The notes under the pieces are model-generated. The model saw only the letters and a list, made by a program, of their open reading frames with translations. It did no database searches and was not told the origin of the DNA. Shown here piece after piece: positions 388 to 32,594 of a stretch of 55,829 bases of DNA. Position 1 is the first letter of the stretch, and each line of letters starts with the position of its first letter. The translations under genes and the position numbers were made by a program. This stretch comes from a virus. The stretch covers positions 1-55,829 of the IMG/VR virus record IMGVR_UViG_3300042541_001626. One strand, written 5' to 3'.

Positions 388-843
388 ATGGTTAGTGATA
401 AATTAAAATCGATTATTTTTAAGAAGTTATACAGTGAGTTATCTCATTTGGAGATTATTAGGTTTAAGTCTGAGATATGGTTTATTGATAGAGAAGTTAG
501 ATGTTGGTATTTTATTTATAATGATAATGGAACTATGTGGTGGAAAAATTCTTTCTTTCGTAGTTTCTTTGAATTCTTTTCCATTACTGAAATCGATGAG
601 TTCGGATCAATTCTTTCTTCTTGGGTGGGAGAGGTCTTAAATTGTAAGGTAGACAGAGCCAGTTTTTTTCAATTGGCATTACCTTTACAGGTGGAAGAGG
701 TCTTAAATTGTAAGGTAATTACAACAGATCCAAGGAAAGAATTTTTTCTGTTCGCGGTGGAAGAGGTCTTAAAACATAAGTCAGAAAGGTTGGGTCATCC
801 CCCTGTTAGTGAGAATGTTGTTATTAATAATACAGAGAAATGA
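388..843 (+). CDS. Small-family protein with C-terminal CRISPR-like repeats (array gene A)
   Basis: I do not know its function. The first ~80 residues (MVSDKLKSII.., WFIDRE..CWYF, MWW, SFF..FFEFF) are shared with the genes at 840, 1314, 3081 and 15394. The C-terminus is the repeat unit W-VEEVLNCKV read in frame three times every 22 codons. The start is ATG 388 rather than GTG 382 because paralogues begin M(I/V)SD(R/K)LK. The N-terminus resembles tagged neighbours (ITESKL..II) but lacks their I-x-E tag. Its stop overlaps the ATG of the next gene (ATGA), indicating translational coupling. The sequence cannot say whether the protein or the repeat RNA is the useful product. Confidence 0.6.
   Translation: MVSDKLKSIIFKKLYSELSHLEIIRFKSEIWFIDREVRCWYFIYNDNGTMWWKNSFFRSFFEFFSITEIDEFGSILSSWVGEVLNCKVDRASFFQLALPLQVEEVLNCKVITTDPRKEFFLFAVEEVLKHKSERLGHPPVSENVVINNTEK
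624..791 (+). CRISPR. CRISPR-like array A (3 repeats, 2 spacers)
   Basis: Repeats lie at 624-659, 690-725 and 756-791 (last decayed), with 30-nt unrelated spacers at 660-689 and 726-755. The 36-nt repeat starts GGTGGAAGAGGTC, has a stem-loop core and ends GGTAATTACAAC in the middle copy. The array sits in the 3' end of a reading frame. No cas gene or leader is visible. Confidence 0.55.
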
Positions 844-1310
844 TTAGTGATAGATTGAAAGGTATTATACATAAGAAGTTGTGTGAGGATTTATCTCATT
901 TGGAAATTATTGAGTGGTATGGTGAGATGTGGTTTATTGATAGAGAGGAAAAGTTTTGGTACTTTATATATAATAAGTCTAATGGTGAGATGTGGTGGAG
1001 ATATTCTTTCTTTACCTCTTTCTTTCTTCTTTTCTCTTTACCCTCTGATGAATTTACCAGTATTCTTTCTTCTTGGGTGGAAGAGGTCTTAAATTGTAAG
1101 GTGTTGTCAATGCCTTCGGTTTTTTCATATCGTCATCTGTTGGTAGAAGATGTCCTAAATTGTAAGGTATCGTCAACCACACCAATAACAATCATCAATG
1201 TCGGAATGGTGGAAGATGTCCTAAATTGTAAGGTAACCAAAACTACCCACATGTACAATAATGGTGAAATTTGGGTGGAAGAAGTTTTAAATAATAATAT
1301 AACCGAATAG
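840..1310 (+). CDS. Small-family protein with C-terminal CRISPR-like repeats (array gene B)
   Basis: Paralogue of the genes at 388 and 1314 (MISDRLKGIIHKKL.., WFIDREEKFWYF, SFFTSFF, EFTSILSSW). After the conserved Trp the protein becomes 22-residue units (VEEVLNCKV, VEDVLNCKV twice, VEEVLNNNI), each followed by a different stretch. Its ATG overlaps the upstream TGA. Function unknown. It lacks the I-x-E tag found on related small proteins. Confidence 0.6.
   Translation: MISDRLKGIIHKKLCEDLSHLEIIEWYGEMWFIDREEKFWYFIYNKSNGEMWWRYSFFTSFFLLFSLPSDEFTSILSSWVEEVLNCKVLSMPSVFSYRHLLVEDVLNCKVSSTTPITIINVGMVEDVLNCKVTKTTHMYNNGEIWVEEVLNNNITE
1076..1309 (+). CRISPR. CRISPR-like array B (4 repeats, 3 spacers)
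   Basis: Repeats lie at 1076-1111, 1142-1177, 1208-1243 and 1274-1309 (decayed), exactly 66 nt apart. Spacers are at 1112-1141, 1178-1207 and 1244-1273. The last spacer is nearly identical to the last spacer of array C (1784-1813), so the 3' ends of the two arrays share ancestry. Several repeats carry changed 3' ends (GTCAAC, AAAAC). Confidence 0.55.
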
Positions 1311-1313
1311 ATT

Positions 1314-1856
1314 ATGATTAGTGATAGATTGAAAGGTATTATATATAAGAAGTTGTGTGGGGATTTATCTCGTGTGGAGATTATTCATTATAGAACTTAT
1401 GTATGGTTTATTGATAGAGAAGATAAGTGTTGGTATTTAAGGTACGATAACTCTGATGGTCAACTCCTATGGAAGTACAGTTTCTTTTGTGATTTCTTCA
1501 CCATCTTTACAATGGATCGTGACGAATTTACCCCCATCATTTCTTCTTGGGTGGAAGATGTTCTGAATTGTAGGGTAAACACAACGGGAGTTGGAATTGT
1601 TAGTAAAAAAGAGAGGGTGGAAGAGGTCTTAAATTGTAAGGTAGACACAACAGCAACAAGACACCAAAGGTTTTATTGTCTGGTGGAAGAGGTCTTAAAT
1701 TGTAAGGTAAACACAACAGGAAGTTCATTATTAGAATTAGGTGGTAAGGTGGAAGAGGTTCTGAATCATAAAGTAAACTCAACTACCCACATGTACACTA
1801 ATGGTGAAATTCAGTCGGGGGAAGTATTAAACCACAATGTGGTGAATAATGTATAA
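1314..1856 (+). CDS. Small-family protein with C-terminal CRISPR-like repeats (array gene C)
   Basis: Third tandem paralogue (MISDRLKGIIYKKL.., WFIDREDKCWYL, SFFCDFF, EFTPIISSW), starting 3 nt after the stop of gene B. It has five units: VEDVLNCRV, VEEVLNCKV twice, VEEVLNHKV, then a decayed SGEVLNHNV that keeps amino-acid similarity although its DNA has drifted. The first unit uses GTT-CTG-AAT and the next GTC-TTA-AAT for the same V-L-N. Function unknown. Confidence 0.6.
   Translation: MISDRLKGIIYKKLCGDLSRVEIIHYRTYVWFIDREDKCWYLRYDNSDGQLLWKYSFFCDFFTIFTMDRDEFTPIISSWVEDVLNCRVNTTGVGIVSKKERVEEVLNCKVDTTATRHQRFYCLVEEVLNCKVNTTGSSLLELGGKVEEVLNHKVNSTTHMYTNGEIQSGEVLNHNVVNNV
1550..1849 (+). CRISPR. CRISPR-like array C (5 repeats, 4 spacers)
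   Basis: Repeats lie at 1550-1585, 1616-1651, 1682-1717, 1748-1783 and a decayed copy at 1814-1849. The 30-nt spacers are at 1586, 1652, 1718 and 1784. The second and third copies are clean, starting GGTGGAAGAGGTC and ending GTA(G/A)ACACAAC. Hairpin arms GTCTTA and TAAGGT flank an AATTG loop (with G-U pairs). In the first copy both arms change (GTTCTG with TAGGGT) and still pair. Confidence 0.6.
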
Positions 1857-1884
1857 TTAAATTATTTCATTATATTTATACTAT

Positions 1885-2328
1885 ATGAAATGTCTAATTA
1901 CAGAGTCACAAAGGGATGATCTATTGAAGAATCTTATTAAAGAACATGGGTATTACTTTGTTAGTAAGATAGTTGGTACTGATTATTTGTCTGAGGAGGT
2001 CTTTCATAGTAACCCTATGGAATTCTTATCTTTGTATGATGACCTTGATCATTTTGAAAGCTCTGAGAAACCTGGTCTTACTATATATCGTTATGAGAAA
2101 GGCGATAATATTTTTCTTGTGGCGAACTCGACTGGTGATGTATATATTAACTATGACGCCATATATGGAGCCCTTGCTATGTTTAAAGAGTCTCAGATAT
2201 ACTCCGTTAGGACTAGACTGCTCTTAAATTGGTTGAGGGACTCATTTGGGATTAAGTCCGATAGAAACCATATGTGGACTATCCACCCTGATCAGGATTA
2301 CTTTTCAGATTATCTACACTTAACTTAA
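1885..2328 (+). CDS. Tagged protein, homologue of the gene at 12492
   Basis: 147 aa starting MKCLITESQ, with the I-x-E tag motif. It matches the 12492 product along its length: KEHGYYFVSKI against KKHGWEYASKL, then NPMEFL, TIYRYEKGDN and a C-terminal NWL. This copy has no repeats after the Trp, so it shows the ancestral end of that family. TATTTATA at 1873-1880 ends four bases before the ATG. Function unknown; inferred late, possibly packaged. Confidence 0.7.
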   Translation: MKCLITESQRDDLLKNLIKEHGYYFVSKIVGTDYLSEEVFHSNPMEFLSLYDDLDHFESSEKPGLTIYRYEKGDNIFLVANSTGDVYINYDAIYGALAMFKESQIYSVRTRLLLNWLRDSFGIKSDRNHMWTIHPDQDYFSDYLHLT

Positions 2329-2335
2329 CCTTATT

Positions 2336-2647
2336 ATGTCACACGAATTAGAAAATGAAAATCTTGAGAAAGAACTTAATAGATTCCTTGATAAGATTGT
2401 TCCCGTTAAATACCCCGAGGTTAACCATATAATTGTTCAGGGTGAACTTTGGAGAACTTCTGGTAATTTCTACTATACCATTAATATTAATCCCACCTTT
2501 GCTGGATCTAAGAGATTACAAGATGATCCTAAGTTTGAAAATGAACTATTCGGGTATATCTTTAAAACCTCTGATTTTGCCCTTAAAATGTTTAAGCAAG
2601 GAAACACTGGTCATTATACCACTGAGGTTAGATGGTTTTGGGATTAA
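2336..2647 (+). CDS. Hypothetical protein
   Basis: 103 aa, 7 nt after the previous stop and probably co-transcribed. It has an acidic N-terminal helix (ELENENLEKELNRFLDKIV) and then strand-like segments (HIIVQGELW, NFYYTININ). No motif I recognise and no tag. Downstream, 2648-2735 holds three copies of a TATA(A/G)TGGAAAA element and nothing else I can name. Confidence 0.6.
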   Translation: MSHELENENLEKELNRFLDKIVPVKYPEVNHIIVQGELWRTSGNFYYTININPTFAGSKRLQDDPKFENELFGYIFKTSDFALKMFKQGNTGHYTTEVRWFWD

Positions 2648-2735
2648 TCTATAATGGAAAATATTTGCCGTTTTTATCTCTATAGTGGAAAATAATCTCC
2701 ATATATAATCTTTTCCCCCATTATAATGGAAAACG

Positions 2736-3002
2736 TTAATTAATCCTTGCTGATTTAAGAATCACCTCTAACATCTGAATCTTGTCCCTGTCGTCCTTGG
2801 TCTTCTTTGATTTACCCTTAAGATAATTGATTGCGTCCATAATCTCATCCCGCTTGTTATTTGTCGGCTTTGGTTTGACAACCTCCTTATCCTTTACTAC
2901 CTTTACATCATTGTTACCAAACAATATGTCCAAAGCTCTCCTGATACGATCTTTGTCGTCTACAAATAACCATAAGAAAATGTGTACTACTAATTTATCC
3001 AT
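2736..3002 (-). CDS. Small charged protein, unknown
   Basis: 88 aa from the inner ATG at 3002 (MDKLVVHIF), preferred because a promoter-like TATCTTTA lies directly upstream on this strand. The N-terminus is hydrophobic, the middle is Lys-rich (KDKEVVKPKPTNNKRDE), and the C-terminal half is helical (IMDAINYLKGKSKKTKDDRDKIQMLEVIL). No family recognised. Confidence 0.5.
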   Translation of the reverse strand: MDKLVVHIFLWLFVDDKDRIRRALDILFGNNDVKVVKDKEVVKPKPTNNKRDEIMDAINYLKGKSKKTKDDRDKIQMLEVILKSARIN

Positions 3003-3056
3003 ATTGTAAAGATACAAAATATTCCCTAATAATTTACCTATATTAAAAAAAAATCC

Positions 3057-3064
3057 TATCTTTG
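3057..3064 (+). promoter_or_regulatory. -7 box TATCTTTG of the largest repeat gene
   Basis: TATCTTTG lies 16 nt before the ATG at 3081. It is identical to the boxes at 375 and 28002. The array gene therefore has a host-sigma-type promoter and no TATTTAT element. Confidence 0.6.
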
Positions 3065-3080
3065 TTATAACGAATAAATT

Positions 3081-3875
3081 ATGATTAGCAATAGACTCAA
3101 AAACCTCATCTTTAAAAAGTTATATAAACACTTAAGCGGCGTAGAAATAATCCACTATGATGACTGTATATGGTTTATCGATAGAGAAACTAAGTTTTGG
3201 TATTTTAACTATCATACACTAGAAAATAAATTATGGTGGAGAGGCGCCTTCTTCTTCGATTTTTTTTTCCTTTTCTCGATGGATCATTCTGAGTTTGTTC
3301 CCATTATTTCTGAGTGGGTGGAAGAGACCTTAAATTGTAAGGTAAGCACAACTCGAAGACGAAGAACTGAGAGAGTTAATGAGGTGGAAGAGGTCTTAAA
3401 TTGTAAGGTAAGCACAACCCAAGATGGTGCACATGCTGAGGATGATTTGGTGGAAGAGACCTTAAATTGTAAGGTAATCACAACACGCAACGGAAACTAC
3501 GATGCCACACTTTTGGTGGAAGAGACCTTAAATTGTAAGGTAATTACAACAATAAATGAGCAATTCAAATACATAAACAAGGTGGACGAGGTCTTAAATT
3601 GTAAGGTAGACACATCTAAAAAAGAAAGTGCTAATTATGAATTAAAGGTGGAAGAGGTCTTTTATCGTGGTGCATTATGTGGAAAGGTGGAAGAGGCCTT
3701 AAATTGTAAGGTAGACACAACAAAAAATTTATCAATCCCATTATACCCAATGGTGGAAGATGTGTTAAATTGTAAGGTAAACACAGCTAGTTCCAATCAA
3801 GGGTTTTTACCACCAAAGGTGGATGAGGTTTTAAATTGTAAGGTAGACACATCTGCGATGGAAAGACCACTTTAG
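3081..3875 (+). CDS. Small-family protein with nine C-terminal repeats (array gene D)
   Basis: 264 aa. Residues 1-79 are the family body (MISNRLKNLIFKKL.., WFIDRETKFWYFNY, LWW, FFFDFFFLFSMD, EFVPIISEW). From residue 80 the protein is 22-residue repeats (VEETLNCKV, VEEVLNCKV, VDEVLNCKV, VEEALNCKV..), with one short 13-residue unit (VEEVFYRGALCGK). The residues between repeats are unrelated to each other. Function unknown. It has its own promoter and no I-x-E tag. Confidence 0.65.
   Translation: MISNRLKNLIFKKLYKHLSGVEIIHYDDCIWFIDRETKFWYFNYHTLENKLWWRGAFFFDFFFLFSMDHSEFVPIISEWVEETLNCKVSTTRRRRTERVNEVEEVLNCKVSTTQDGAHAEDDLVEETLNCKVITTRNGNYDATLLVEETLNCKVITTINEQFKYINKVDEVLNCKVDTSKKESANYELKVEEVFYRGALCGKVEEALNCKVDTTKNLSIPLYPMVEDVLNCKVNTASSNQGFLPPKVDEVLNCKVDTSAMERPL
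3317..3853 (+). CRISPR. CRISPR-like array D (9 repeats)
   Basis: Repeats start at 3317, 3383, 3449, 3515, 3581, 3647, 3686, 3752 and 3818. All steps are 66 nt except one shortened 39-nt unit at 3647-3685. Full spacers are 30 nt. Copies at 3317, 3449 and 3515 carry GAGACCTTA..TAAGGT, where ACCTTA and TAAGGT pair perfectly around AATTG. The copy at 3449 ends GGTAATCACAAC. Every repeat is preceded in frame by a codon ending in G, whatever the amino acid. Confidence 0.65.
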
Positions 3876-3925: not shown

Positions 3926-4261
3926 ATGAAATACATTATAACAGAATCTAAACTTAATGCTGCGATTGATGAGTTCATCACAAAACAATTTGGTAAGTTG
4001 CATCATCAGTTAGACGGTAATAAACTTACATTGGTTAATGATAATGGTGACCCCATGATTATGATTACTGATAAAGATAATACTTATTTTGTTTGGGTGT
4101 TAGATGATGTTTGGAGAAGTGGATTTTTGATGTTCTCCATGAAACGTTTTGTGAATATGCAGCCCGTGTTACATAAATGGTTACATAAACATTATAACAT
4201 ACCTGTGGAAGAATCAAACATCTCCACATTTTCACGAGGTGAAGAAGAATACGTATACTAA
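3926..4261 (+). CDS. Tagged small-family protein (MKYIITESKL)
   Basis: 111 aa with tag MKYIITE-S. The body aligns loosely with the array genes: a hydrophobic strand region, then FSMKRFVNMQPVLHKWLHKHYNIPVEES, which matches FSMDHSEFVPIISEWVEETLNCKV. It is therefore a repeat-free relative showing that the first repeat of an array corresponds to the native C-terminal helix. TATTTAT at 3914-3920 lies five bases before the ATG. Confidence 0.7.
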   Translation: MKYIITESKLNAAIDEFITKQFGKLHHQLDGNKLTLVNDNGDPMIMITDKDNTYFVWVLDDVWRSGFLMFSMKRFVNMQPVLHKWLHKHYNIPVEESNISTFSRGEEEYVY

Positions 4262-12491: not shown

Positions 12492-13004
12492 ATGAAGATT
12501 ATTATATCAGAGAATCAAAAGAAAAATTTACTTAAATCTATTGTTAAAAAACATGGGTGGGAATACGCTTCCAAACTTGCCGGTAAACCAGAAGAGTTGG
12601 CAAAATTGACATTCGACAATGATCCGATGGAGTTCCTACATATGTTTAACGATATGGATTTTGTTCAGTCAAAAAGTGAAAAAGACTGGACATTGTATCG
12701 TTATGAAAAGGGACATAATCTGATGATTTACGATAGAAAAAATAAATATGTTTACATAGATTATTCTGACATTTGGTTATTTTTGGAAGATGGTTTCGGA
12801 CTTAACTACTCTGAGACACAGGAACTTACAACAAGATGGGTGGATGAAGCATACAATTTAAGGGGGGTTACAACGAGATTTGGTTTAGTTCAACAGAAAA
12901 TGGTGGTGGATGAAGCATACAATTTAAGGGGAGTCACTATTACCCCACAAGTACCCCACAAGTACCCCACAAGTACCCCAAAGTGGATGAATCATACAAA
13001 TTAA
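12492..13004 (+). CDS. Tagged protein with a second type of C-terminal repeat (array gene E)
   Basis: 170 aa. Tag MKIIISE-N, then a body homologous to the 1885 product (KKHGWEYASKL, NDPMEFLHMF, TLYRYEKGHN, YVYIDYSDIW). After LTTRW the C-terminus becomes VDEAYNLRGVTT units. Two units are 66 nt apart. A third lies 77 nt on, because an 11-nt sequence is repeated in the spacer; that shifts the frame and ends the ORF at 13004. This gene links the tag, the late element and a CRISPR-like repeat. Confidence 0.65.
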   Translation: MKIIISENQKKNLLKSIVKKHGWEYASKLAGKPEELAKLTFDNDPMEFLHMFNDMDFVQSKSEKDWTLYRYEKGHNLMIYDRKNKYVYIDYSDIWLFLEDGFGLNYSETQELTTRWVDEAYNLRGVTTRFGLVQQKMVVDEAYNLRGVTITPQVPHKYPTSTPKWMNHTN

Positions 13005-13017
13005 GAGGAGTCACTAT
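12839..13017 (+). CRISPR. CRISPR-like array E, different repeat (3 copies)
   Basis: The 36-nt repeats lie at 12839-12874, 12905-12940 and 12982-13017. They start GGTGGATGAAGCATAC; the first ends GGGTTACAAC and the others are changed to CACTAT. The first spacer (12875-12904) is 30 nt. The second gap is 41 nt and made of 11-nt tandem units (AGTACCCCACA). Sequence unlike arrays A-D, yet the same repeat and spacer lengths and the same GGTGGA start and ACAAC end. Confidence 0.5.
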
Positions 13018-15393: not shown

Positions 15394-15744
15394 ATGATTA
15401 GTGATCGATTGATAGATATTATACATAAGAAGTTATACACAGACTTAAATAATGTTGAGATAATCCATCACTATAATAGTATATGGTTTATCGATAGAAA
15501 AGAAAAGTTTTGGTATTTCAAATATGAAACCAATACTCATAAACTATATTGGAAAGGATCTTACTTCGCAAACTTTTTTACATTTTTCTCCATGGGTGAA
15601 CGTGAGTTTACTGGTATTCTTTCCGATTGGTCGGAAAAGATTTTCAACTGTAAAGTGAAAATAACCCAAAGACTTGAAATTAATATGGATCAACATTTGG
15701 AAGAGGTTCTTAATTATAAGAAAAGCGATGATCTCATTTCATAA
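15394..15744 (+). CDS. Small-family protein with decayed repeats (array gene F)
   Basis: 116 aa: MISDRLIDIIHKKL.., WFIDRKEKFWYFKY, LYWKGSYFANFFTFFSM, EFTGILSDW. Then come two degenerate units (SEKIFNCKVKIT and LEEVLNYKKSDD), still exactly 66 nt apart. Body clearly orthologous to genes A-D, 11.5 kb away. Function unknown. Confidence 0.65.
   Translation: MISDRLIDIIHKKLYTDLNNVEIIHHYNSIWFIDRKEKFWYFKYETNTHKLYWKGSYFANFFTFFSMGEREFTGILSDWSEKIFNCKVKITQRLEINMDQHLEEVLNYKKSDDLIS
15630..15731 (+). repeat. Decayed CRISPR-like repeats, array F
   Basis: Two units start at 15630 and 15696. They keep the 66-nt step and part of the coding sense (NCKV, EEVLN) but have lost the GGTGG start and ACAAC end. Probably a relic, or the state before expansion. 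Confidence 0.45.
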
Positions 15745-24698: not shown

Positions 24699-24713
24699 AA
24701 TGATAAATACTTT

Positions 24714-24728
24714 TATCTTTGTATTTAT
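24714..24728 (+). promoter_or_regulatory. Overlapping TATCTTTG and TATTTAT elements
   Basis: TATCTTTG (24714-24721) runs into TATTTAT (24722-24728), five bases before the ATG at 24733. Both promoter classes appear together only here, so this gene may be expressed early and late. Confidence 0.45.
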
Positions 24729-24732
24729 CACT

Positions 24733-25071
24733 ATGAAATACATTATCACAGAATCTAAATTAGATAATATTATTTATCAATACATCGAAGATATGTTTGA
24801 TGACTTACATTTTACTGCTGCGGAAGATGAAGAGGGTTATGAAATGAATTCTGCTCTACAGTTTTATTTTGGTGACTATGGGGACGATGAAAGCGCGTTT
24901 TATTGGTATGATAGCGATTACTTTAATAATGATTGTGAAAAATGTCCAATAGTTGTATTTGAAACAGACTTGTTAGATAAACTAAATTCGTTATTTTCAA
25001 ATAAATGGGAACCTATATTTAAAAAATGGTTATGGGAAACATTTCACATGAAGGTTAAAACCATTGAATAA
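24733..25071 (+). CDS. Tagged small-family protein (MKYIITESKL)
   Basis: 112 aa from ATG 24733 (tag MKYIITE-SKLDNIIYQYI). Acidic body (AAEDEEGYEMN, GDYGDDESAFYWYDSDYF). The C-terminus LLDKLNSLFSNKWEPIFKKW followed by LWETFHMKVKTIE shows the family's W-(L/V)..KV ending. Repeat-free relative of the array genes. Confidence 0.65.
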   Translation: MKYIITESKLDNIIYQYIEDMFDDLHFTAAEDEEGYEMNSALQFYFGDYGDDESAFYWYDSDYFNNDCEKCPIVVFETDLLDKLNSLFSNKWEPIFKKWLWETFHMKVKTIE

Positions 25072-32210: not shown

Positions 32211-32228
32211 AAAAATAGTTTGTTAATT

Positions 32229-32594
32229 ATGAAATATCTAATCACAGAATCCAAATTAAAAAATGTTATATATAACTTTTTAAATAACTATAATGATTTT
32301 AAAGATCTAAAGGAATTTGACGGTGACTTTATGGACTGGGAAAATGGTAAATGGGTTGAAGCTGCTGAGTTTGGTCATTTTGATTGGGATCCTATTATCA
32401 CTTATTACAAATACCCAAGTGAGACCGAAAAATACGATGATATAGATTTAGAAATCCTCCCGTTAGTCCATGTTAATGATAGTAATTTTAGAACTATGAT
32501 GGGCTCATTGTTTGGAGGTATGGATAAATATGAAGACATTTTTTTAGATTGGTTTGAAGATACTTATGGATATCGAGCAAACAATCTTACATAA
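32229..32594 (+). CDS. Tagged small-family protein (MKYLITESKL)
   Basis: 121 aa from ATG 32229. Tag MKYLITE-SKLKNVIYNFL, acidic-aromatic body (DGDFMDWENGKWVEAAEFGH), C-terminus KYEDIFLDWFEDTYGYRANN, again W-F..Y like the family. No TATTTAT in front; probably co-transcribed with 31707. Confidence 0.65.
   Translation: MKYLITESKLKNVIYNFLNNYNDFKDLKEFDGDFMDWENGKWVEAAEFGHFDWDPIITYYKYPSETEKYDDIDLEILPLVHVNDSNFRTMMGSLFGGMDKYEDIFLDWFEDTYGYRANNLT

Follow-up and report, generated by a model that had tools for sequence, protein, structure and literature searches.

CRISPR-like repeat-spacer arrays within the 3' ends of phage protein-coding genes suggest spacer acquisition at gene ends

Six repeat-spacer arrays, with 26 repeat copies in total, were found in six paralogous genes of a 55,829-base virus record (referred to as the window, meaning the whole stretch of DNA analysed), each array consisting of the gene's own terminal codons repeated with unrelated 30-nt spacers in between. 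The first copy of the repeat codes for the final helix of the domain that the same gene encodes (SSWVEEVLNCKV). In the four genes at the left end the 36-nt repeat of family 1, GGTGGAAGAGGTCTTAAATTGTAAGGTARACACAAC, alternates with unrelated 30-nt spacers at an exact 66-nt step, in agreement with a preliminary description of the same genes (Table 1). The evidence from the window and from related phages suggests that these arrays behave like CRISPR arrays, with spacers of about 30 nt being added singly at the gene-proximal edge. Taken as a whole, the likely explanation is that a host integrase of the Cas1-Cas2 type treats the gene ends as CRISPR repeats and adds spacers to them, while a gain for the phage is put forward more weakly.

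Table 1. Array-bearing genes of the window and the T-rich stretch preceding the array of gene 4.
Feature	Positions	Strand	Description
Gene 1, family 1	388..843	+	~80-aa domain and array; repeats 624-659, 690-725 and degenerate terminal 756-791
Gene 2, family 1	840..1310	+	Repeats 1076-1111, 1142-1177, 1208-1243 and degenerate terminal 1274-1309 with the gene's stop
Gene 3, family 1	1314..1856	+	Repeats 1550-1585, 1616-1651, 1682-1717, 1748-1783 and degenerate terminal 1814-1849
Gene 4, family 1	3081..3875	+	36-nt repeats from 3317, 3383, 3449, 3515 and 3581; truncated 3647-3660; then from 3686, 3752 and 3818
Gene 5, family 1	15394..15744	+	Array of two decayed units (repeats at 15630-15665 and 15696-15731)
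Gene 6, sister family 2	12492..13004	+	Repeat GGTGGATGAAGCATACAATTTAAGGGGGGTTACAAC at 12839-12874, followed after a 30-nt spacer by a second repeat (12905-12940) and then by a decayed copy, out of frame, at ~12982-13017
T-rich end of domain coding sequence (FFFDFFFLFSM)	3241..3316	+	Directly 5' of the first gene 4 repeat, where a CRISPR leader would lie (suggestive only)

The four arrays reported at first were all recovered, and two more that had been missed were added, namely the degenerate array of gene 5 and that of gene 6, whose repeat differs from that of family 1 and whose step is likewise 66 nt. The shortened 39-nt unit of gene 4 was traced to a 27-nt deletion at 3661, and the last full spacers of gene 3 and gene 2 were found to be identical at 27 of 30 positions. 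In gene 6 an 11-nt unit (TACCCCACAAG) occurs four times (12941-12984), after the second repeat and before the decayed third one. Further genes sharing the MKYIITES-type start, with a W-containing C-terminus and lacking an array, are located at 1885-2328, 3926-4261, 24700-25071 and 32220-32594.

Genes of family 1 were identified by pattern and profile scans in 25 further IMG/VR records, and the window together with related IMG/VR contigs provided 66 arrays with 182 spacers, counts that overstate the independent evidence, the arrays being of common ancestry. A period-66 signal was detected in nearly all of the phage contigs fetched, and the 22-codon step was kept in 131 of 138 consecutive unit pairs (167 units, related phage records). 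Arrays are present in many family members, often in several paralogs of one phage genome, and the repeat variant is particular to each phage. The protein of one relative (G022; L087, L088) reaches 494 residues, with an array among the longest followed by a further degenerate tail. No confident PHROGs or Pfam family was obtained, no CRISPR repeat or other RNA family of Rfam was matched, and a fold search against the PDB gave no match, the matches in BFVD being uncharacterised phage proteins only.

The repeat is a nucleic-acid unit and not a protein repeat. It starts and ends within codons. The base preceding it occupies position three of the last variable codon; in internal units this base is G 114 times out of 125, across about 15 different amino acids, compared with 8-19% G at the other variable codons. 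The decisive evidence was given by sister family 2, in which arrays run out of frame or beyond the stop codon with repeats that are still nearly perfect; internal repeats lying out of frame or after a stop were identical to the first copy at 34.8 of 36 positions. Across all 66 arrays, translated spacers were of 27, 30 or 33 nt only (114 of 117 being 30 nt), whereas untranslated spacers spanned 28-33 nt and were most often 30 nt long (Fisher p = 1.2e-22), so that spacer length is filtered by the reading frame. The spacer codons of family 1 contained no stop (0/1116, against 6.9% in random genomic 30-mers), indicating that the arrays of this family are kept open. This preserved frame, together with a slightly coding-like codon usage of the spacers, would also be expected of a tandem-repeat protein in which a 22-residue module with ten hypervariable residues arose through ordinary gene duplication and diversifying selection. 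Such an origin is, nevertheless, highly improbable in view of the codon-internal repeat edges, the conservation of repeats out of frame and after stops, the spacer lengths of 28-33 nt, and the lack of a continuum of drift among the spacers. In the AlphaFold model of gene 3 the translated array tail was predicted to be disordered (pLDDT ~28, compared with ~90 for the domain), and the protein-repeat hypothesis was rejected on this disorder and on the out-of-frame conserved repeats; a repeat both kept in the protein reading frame and folded was not found.

Pairwise spacer identity was distributed as in the shuffled null, the exceptions being a few orthologous pairs with 21/30 or more. Between gene 3 of the window and its counterpart in G010, the domain DNA was 83% identical and the best repeat pair 94%, while the best spacer pair (14/30) was at background. 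Spacers conserved between relatives with protein-like substitutions, the outcome named beforehand as counting against a CRISPR-like reading, were thus not encountered. Repeats are near-identical, spacers unique and spacer length near-constant, growth is polarised to one end, and distal spacers are common to relatives. Repeat divergence increased with distance from the gene body (20 arrays versus 5, p = 0.004), the terminal repeat matching at 28.5 of 36 positions and internal repeats at 33.3; the terminal copy is the most diverged and carries the gene's original end. Related phages have distal spacers in common and differ in the gene-proximal ones: G435 and G436 have spacers 2-5 in common and differ in spacer 1, G428 and G429 have spacers 3-4 in common and differ in spacers 1-2, G431 and G433 have spacer 2 in common and differ in spacer 1, and L028 has the two spacers of L031 preceded by one more. 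In one-spacer arrays, the original gene end is retained as the terminal copy.

This stepwise growth also bears on the idea that the phage took up pieces of host CRISPR arrays by recombination and that no integration took place in its own genome. The resemblance of the phage repeat to host repeats, and the existence of conventional non-coding VI-B-like mini-arrays in other viral contigs, would be in keeping with capture. Against it stand, besides the growth at one end and the retained gene ends of one-spacer arrays, the match of the repeats to the gene's own codons in a variant particular to each phage and the absence of any spacer in common with the 736 spacers of the host loci, so that capture is regarded as very unlikely. 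Of the origins considered, the one with the most support is now the integration of spacers into a gene end that resembles a repeat, as suggested at the outset.

The resemblance of the repeat to those of type VI-B systems was evaluated against Bacteroidota genomes. A GTDB search, with a pattern built from Cas13b repeats and from the phage repeat itself, returned 98 stretches, almost all in Bacteroidota (including Bergeyella zoohelcum, Segatella buccae and Flavobacterium columnare), which makes the resulting VI-B set partly phage-inspired. A Cas13b profile match was found beside a sample of these repeats. To offset the influence of the phage repeat on the pattern, a motif-free profile search for Cas13b genes was run on 395 genomes; the two repeats recovered in this way had at most 20/36 and 25/36 positions in common with a phage repeat. 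In an ungapped alignment the phage consensus agreed with the VI-B consensus at 25 of 36 positions (for shuffled sequences the best of 25 repeats averaged 12.5), and 30-nt spacers made up 79% of the 736 spacers in host arrays with VI-B-like repeats, upholding the VI-B-like 36+30 geometry initially proposed. When 2.87 million phage 36-mers were scored with a VI-B matrix, the array repeats were the top scorers. The likeness extends beyond the encoded peptide: with the peptide held fixed, 51 of the 60 distinct first repeats used codons that brought them closer to VI-B than 95% of their synonymous recodings. Family-2 ends with arrays also scored far above array-less ends (p = 9e-5), some of the array-less comparisons being mis-anchored. 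The arrays of G023, L027-L031 and the VENTLQ group were only weakly VI-B-like, and in family 1 the second repeat base is changed from T to G, which breaks one pair in the terminal stem of VI-B repeats. The repeats of loci of the Cas12f/sigma-factor type were equally similar by consensus (25/36), and VI-B is preferred as the system probably mimicked mainly because of the best individual matches and the host geometry.

A conserved RNA hairpin was considered and rejected, the repeats folding no better than their synonymous recodings; a crRNA repeat stem-loop of the VI-B kind was accordingly not found, which weakens a crRNA-mimic function. Several VI-B-like loci were observed in their own right. 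In Sphingobacterium and Parapedobacter (L144, L146, L170, L174, L191, L205, L214 and L235) many small, irregularly spaced VI-B-like 36-nt arrays lie near an ORF of ~370 aa; that of L191 is Cas12f-like, and in L191, L170 and L144 the ORF is located after an ECF-sigma-like ORF. In L241 (1-4377) a single ORF of 1459 aa adjoins a VI-B-like array; the middle of this ORF matches Cas13b, and its C-terminal third matches an NsnB/AAA-ATPase-like defence protein. The viral contigs L244, L250, L251, L254, L257, L258, L262 and L263 contain conventional, apparently non-coding VI-B-like arrays.

No Cas1 was detected in 20 phage records, and phmmer gave no Cas13b or Cas12f match in the phage records searched, so that no cas13b was found beside the arrays, consistent with the initial statement that cas genes are lacking. 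The accompanying statement on the leader held in part: there is no separate leader, and the gene body occupies the leader position. A run of at least five T between -100 and -35 was present in 70% of the 66 arrays, compared with 44% of host arrays and 23% of random phage segments, and the T-rich stretch at the place of a CRISPR leader is suggestive only. The exact phage repeat (that of family 2) was not found in the 395 genomes searched, and the putative host of the phage is placed by repeat resemblance only.

That no matching host repeat was recovered from these genomes, and that the units recur in a single gene superfamily, with several paralogs of a phage often involved, would be explained if a phage-encoded or other non-Cas integrase or recombinase added the units, the VI-B likeness then reflecting a common target preference or chance. 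This is considered unlikely, given that the 36+30 geometry, the gene-proximal growth and the VI-B-biased synonymous sites are all CRISPR-like and that no Cas1 was found in the 20 records. In F. columnare, the Cas1-Cas2 of a II-C system serves a VI-B array in trans, although the repeats differ (PMC8092290); with this precedent and no phage Cas1, recognition of the gene end by host Cas1-Cas2 is the simplest account, and we infer that the integrase belongs to the host.

The sources of the spacers were sought in the phages' own contigs, sister contigs, host loci and INPHARED, and none was found. The capture of foreign DNA was not observed directly, which counts against the integration account, as does the lack of an exact host repeat in the 395 genomes. 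INPHARED (50,697 phage records) gave no credible match, and four spacers compared with IMG/VR matched only their arrays of origin; the proposed search of phage and host collections therefore yielded no credible source. No spacer was common to the 736 host-locus spacers, and host spacers compared with the phages gave chance-level partial matches only. No self-derived spacer was found in the own contigs among those tested, as would be expected of guides with at least some function, or of spacers that are merely foreign in origin. The lack of self-matching spacers, the sense orientation of the arrays, which is the crRNA orientation, and a precedent in archaeal viral mini-arrays (PMC11656645) would favour arrays that supply host Cas13b (or Cas12f) with guides against competing phages or plasmids. 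With no credible match in 50,697 phage records and repeats that are not identical to any known host repeat, this role is judged improbable. The phage units may act as crRNA-like arrays or Racr-type decoys, as first suggested, and a decoy function is plausible, but the repeats fold no better than recodings, and neither a matching host repeat nor a spacer source was found.

In the sequence of events proposed, the 3' ends of the gene superfamily (final domain helix W-V-E-E-V-L-N-C-K-V-x-T-T) would use codons that form a 36-bp repeat like those of Bacteroidota VI-B systems, and an integrase of the CRISPR type (most likely Cas1-Cas2 of the host) would mistake the gene end for an array's first repeat. 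A spacer of ~30 bp would then be inserted at the gene-proximal edge, with 36 bp duplicated per insertion, the gene body taking the position of the leader and the oldest, terminal copy being the gene's original C-terminus and stop. Only frame-preserving, stop-free spacers would persist in family 1, while in family 2 the arrays would continue past the stop. The arrays may be kept because they help the phage, as a sink for new spacers and/or as non-self crRNA-like RNA that would load Cas13b with guides not targeting the phage, this part being held with less confidence than the integration itself. A more specific version, in which a dual-coding gene end (C-terminus and bait repeat) diverts host Cas1-Cas2 spacers into the phage and in-frame arrays then supply Cas13b with non-self guides, is offered tentatively and is on balance doubtful. 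The same integration origin could also have brought no benefit, the arrays being tolerated off-target scars with a tail that is disordered and either untranslated or in frame. The predicted disorder of the tail, the absence of fold conservation and the distal decay of many arrays are compatible with such scars, and the possibility is a substantial one, short of probable, because arrays occur in many family members and in several paralogs per genome, the codons chosen in 51/60 favour repeat likeness and no spacer among those tested is self-derived.

If integration by a host Cas1-Cas2-type enzyme is true, these arrays would represent the first CRISPR-type spacer acquisition into viral protein-coding genes, as far as the searched literature shows; no earlier description of gene-embedded arrays was found in a search that excluded most subscription papers and all preprints. 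They would also provide the type VI counterpart of viral repeat mimicry, which was missing in the Racr survey, where repeat mimics of all types except type VI were reported (PMC10651486). Confident ORFs were masked in that survey, which could therefore hardly have detected gene-embedded arrays, and the same holds for surveys that mask coding sequence in general. For uncultured phages the arrays offer a history of acquisition events that can be read directly, and they suggest that immune memory of bacteria is entering, and is perhaps being diverted by, protein genes of the virus itself. The baiting of adaptation machinery by a virus becomes directly testable and, if the bait-repeat reading is true, the arrays would be a spacer sink in which the immune memory of the host becomes cargo of the virus. 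As to a possible gain for the phage, a surplus of crRNA can lower Cas13b defence (PMC13187072), but the VI-B fold is not kept in the phage repeats.

Among known systems, the phage arrays are similar to the type VI-B (Cas13b) arrays of Bacteroidota in the ungapped 36-nt repeat (25/36), the mostly 30-nt spacers, the crRNA orientation, the growth at the upstream end and the degenerate terminal repeat, and differ from them in lacking cas genes, in lying inside a protein gene whose peptide is encoded by the repeat, in the changed second repeat base of family 1 and in the replacement of the leader by the gene body. The acquisition in trans described for F. columnare (PMC8092290) is comparable in that one Cas1-Cas2 serves arrays with different 36-bp repeats, although both of those arrays are chromosomal host arrays. 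Racrs and solitary repeat units (PMC10651486) are likewise cases of a virus mimicking a host CRISPR repeat, but they are single non-coding units, whereas the phage units form arrays inside ORFs and are coding. The viral CRISPR mini-arrays reviewed in PMC11656645 are also virus-borne repeat-spacer arrays without cas genes; unlike these, the phage arrays have repeats that are not identical to a known host array and, within the collections searched, spacers that do not match related viruses, and they reach up to ~14 units while being embedded in, and built from, protein-coding sequence.
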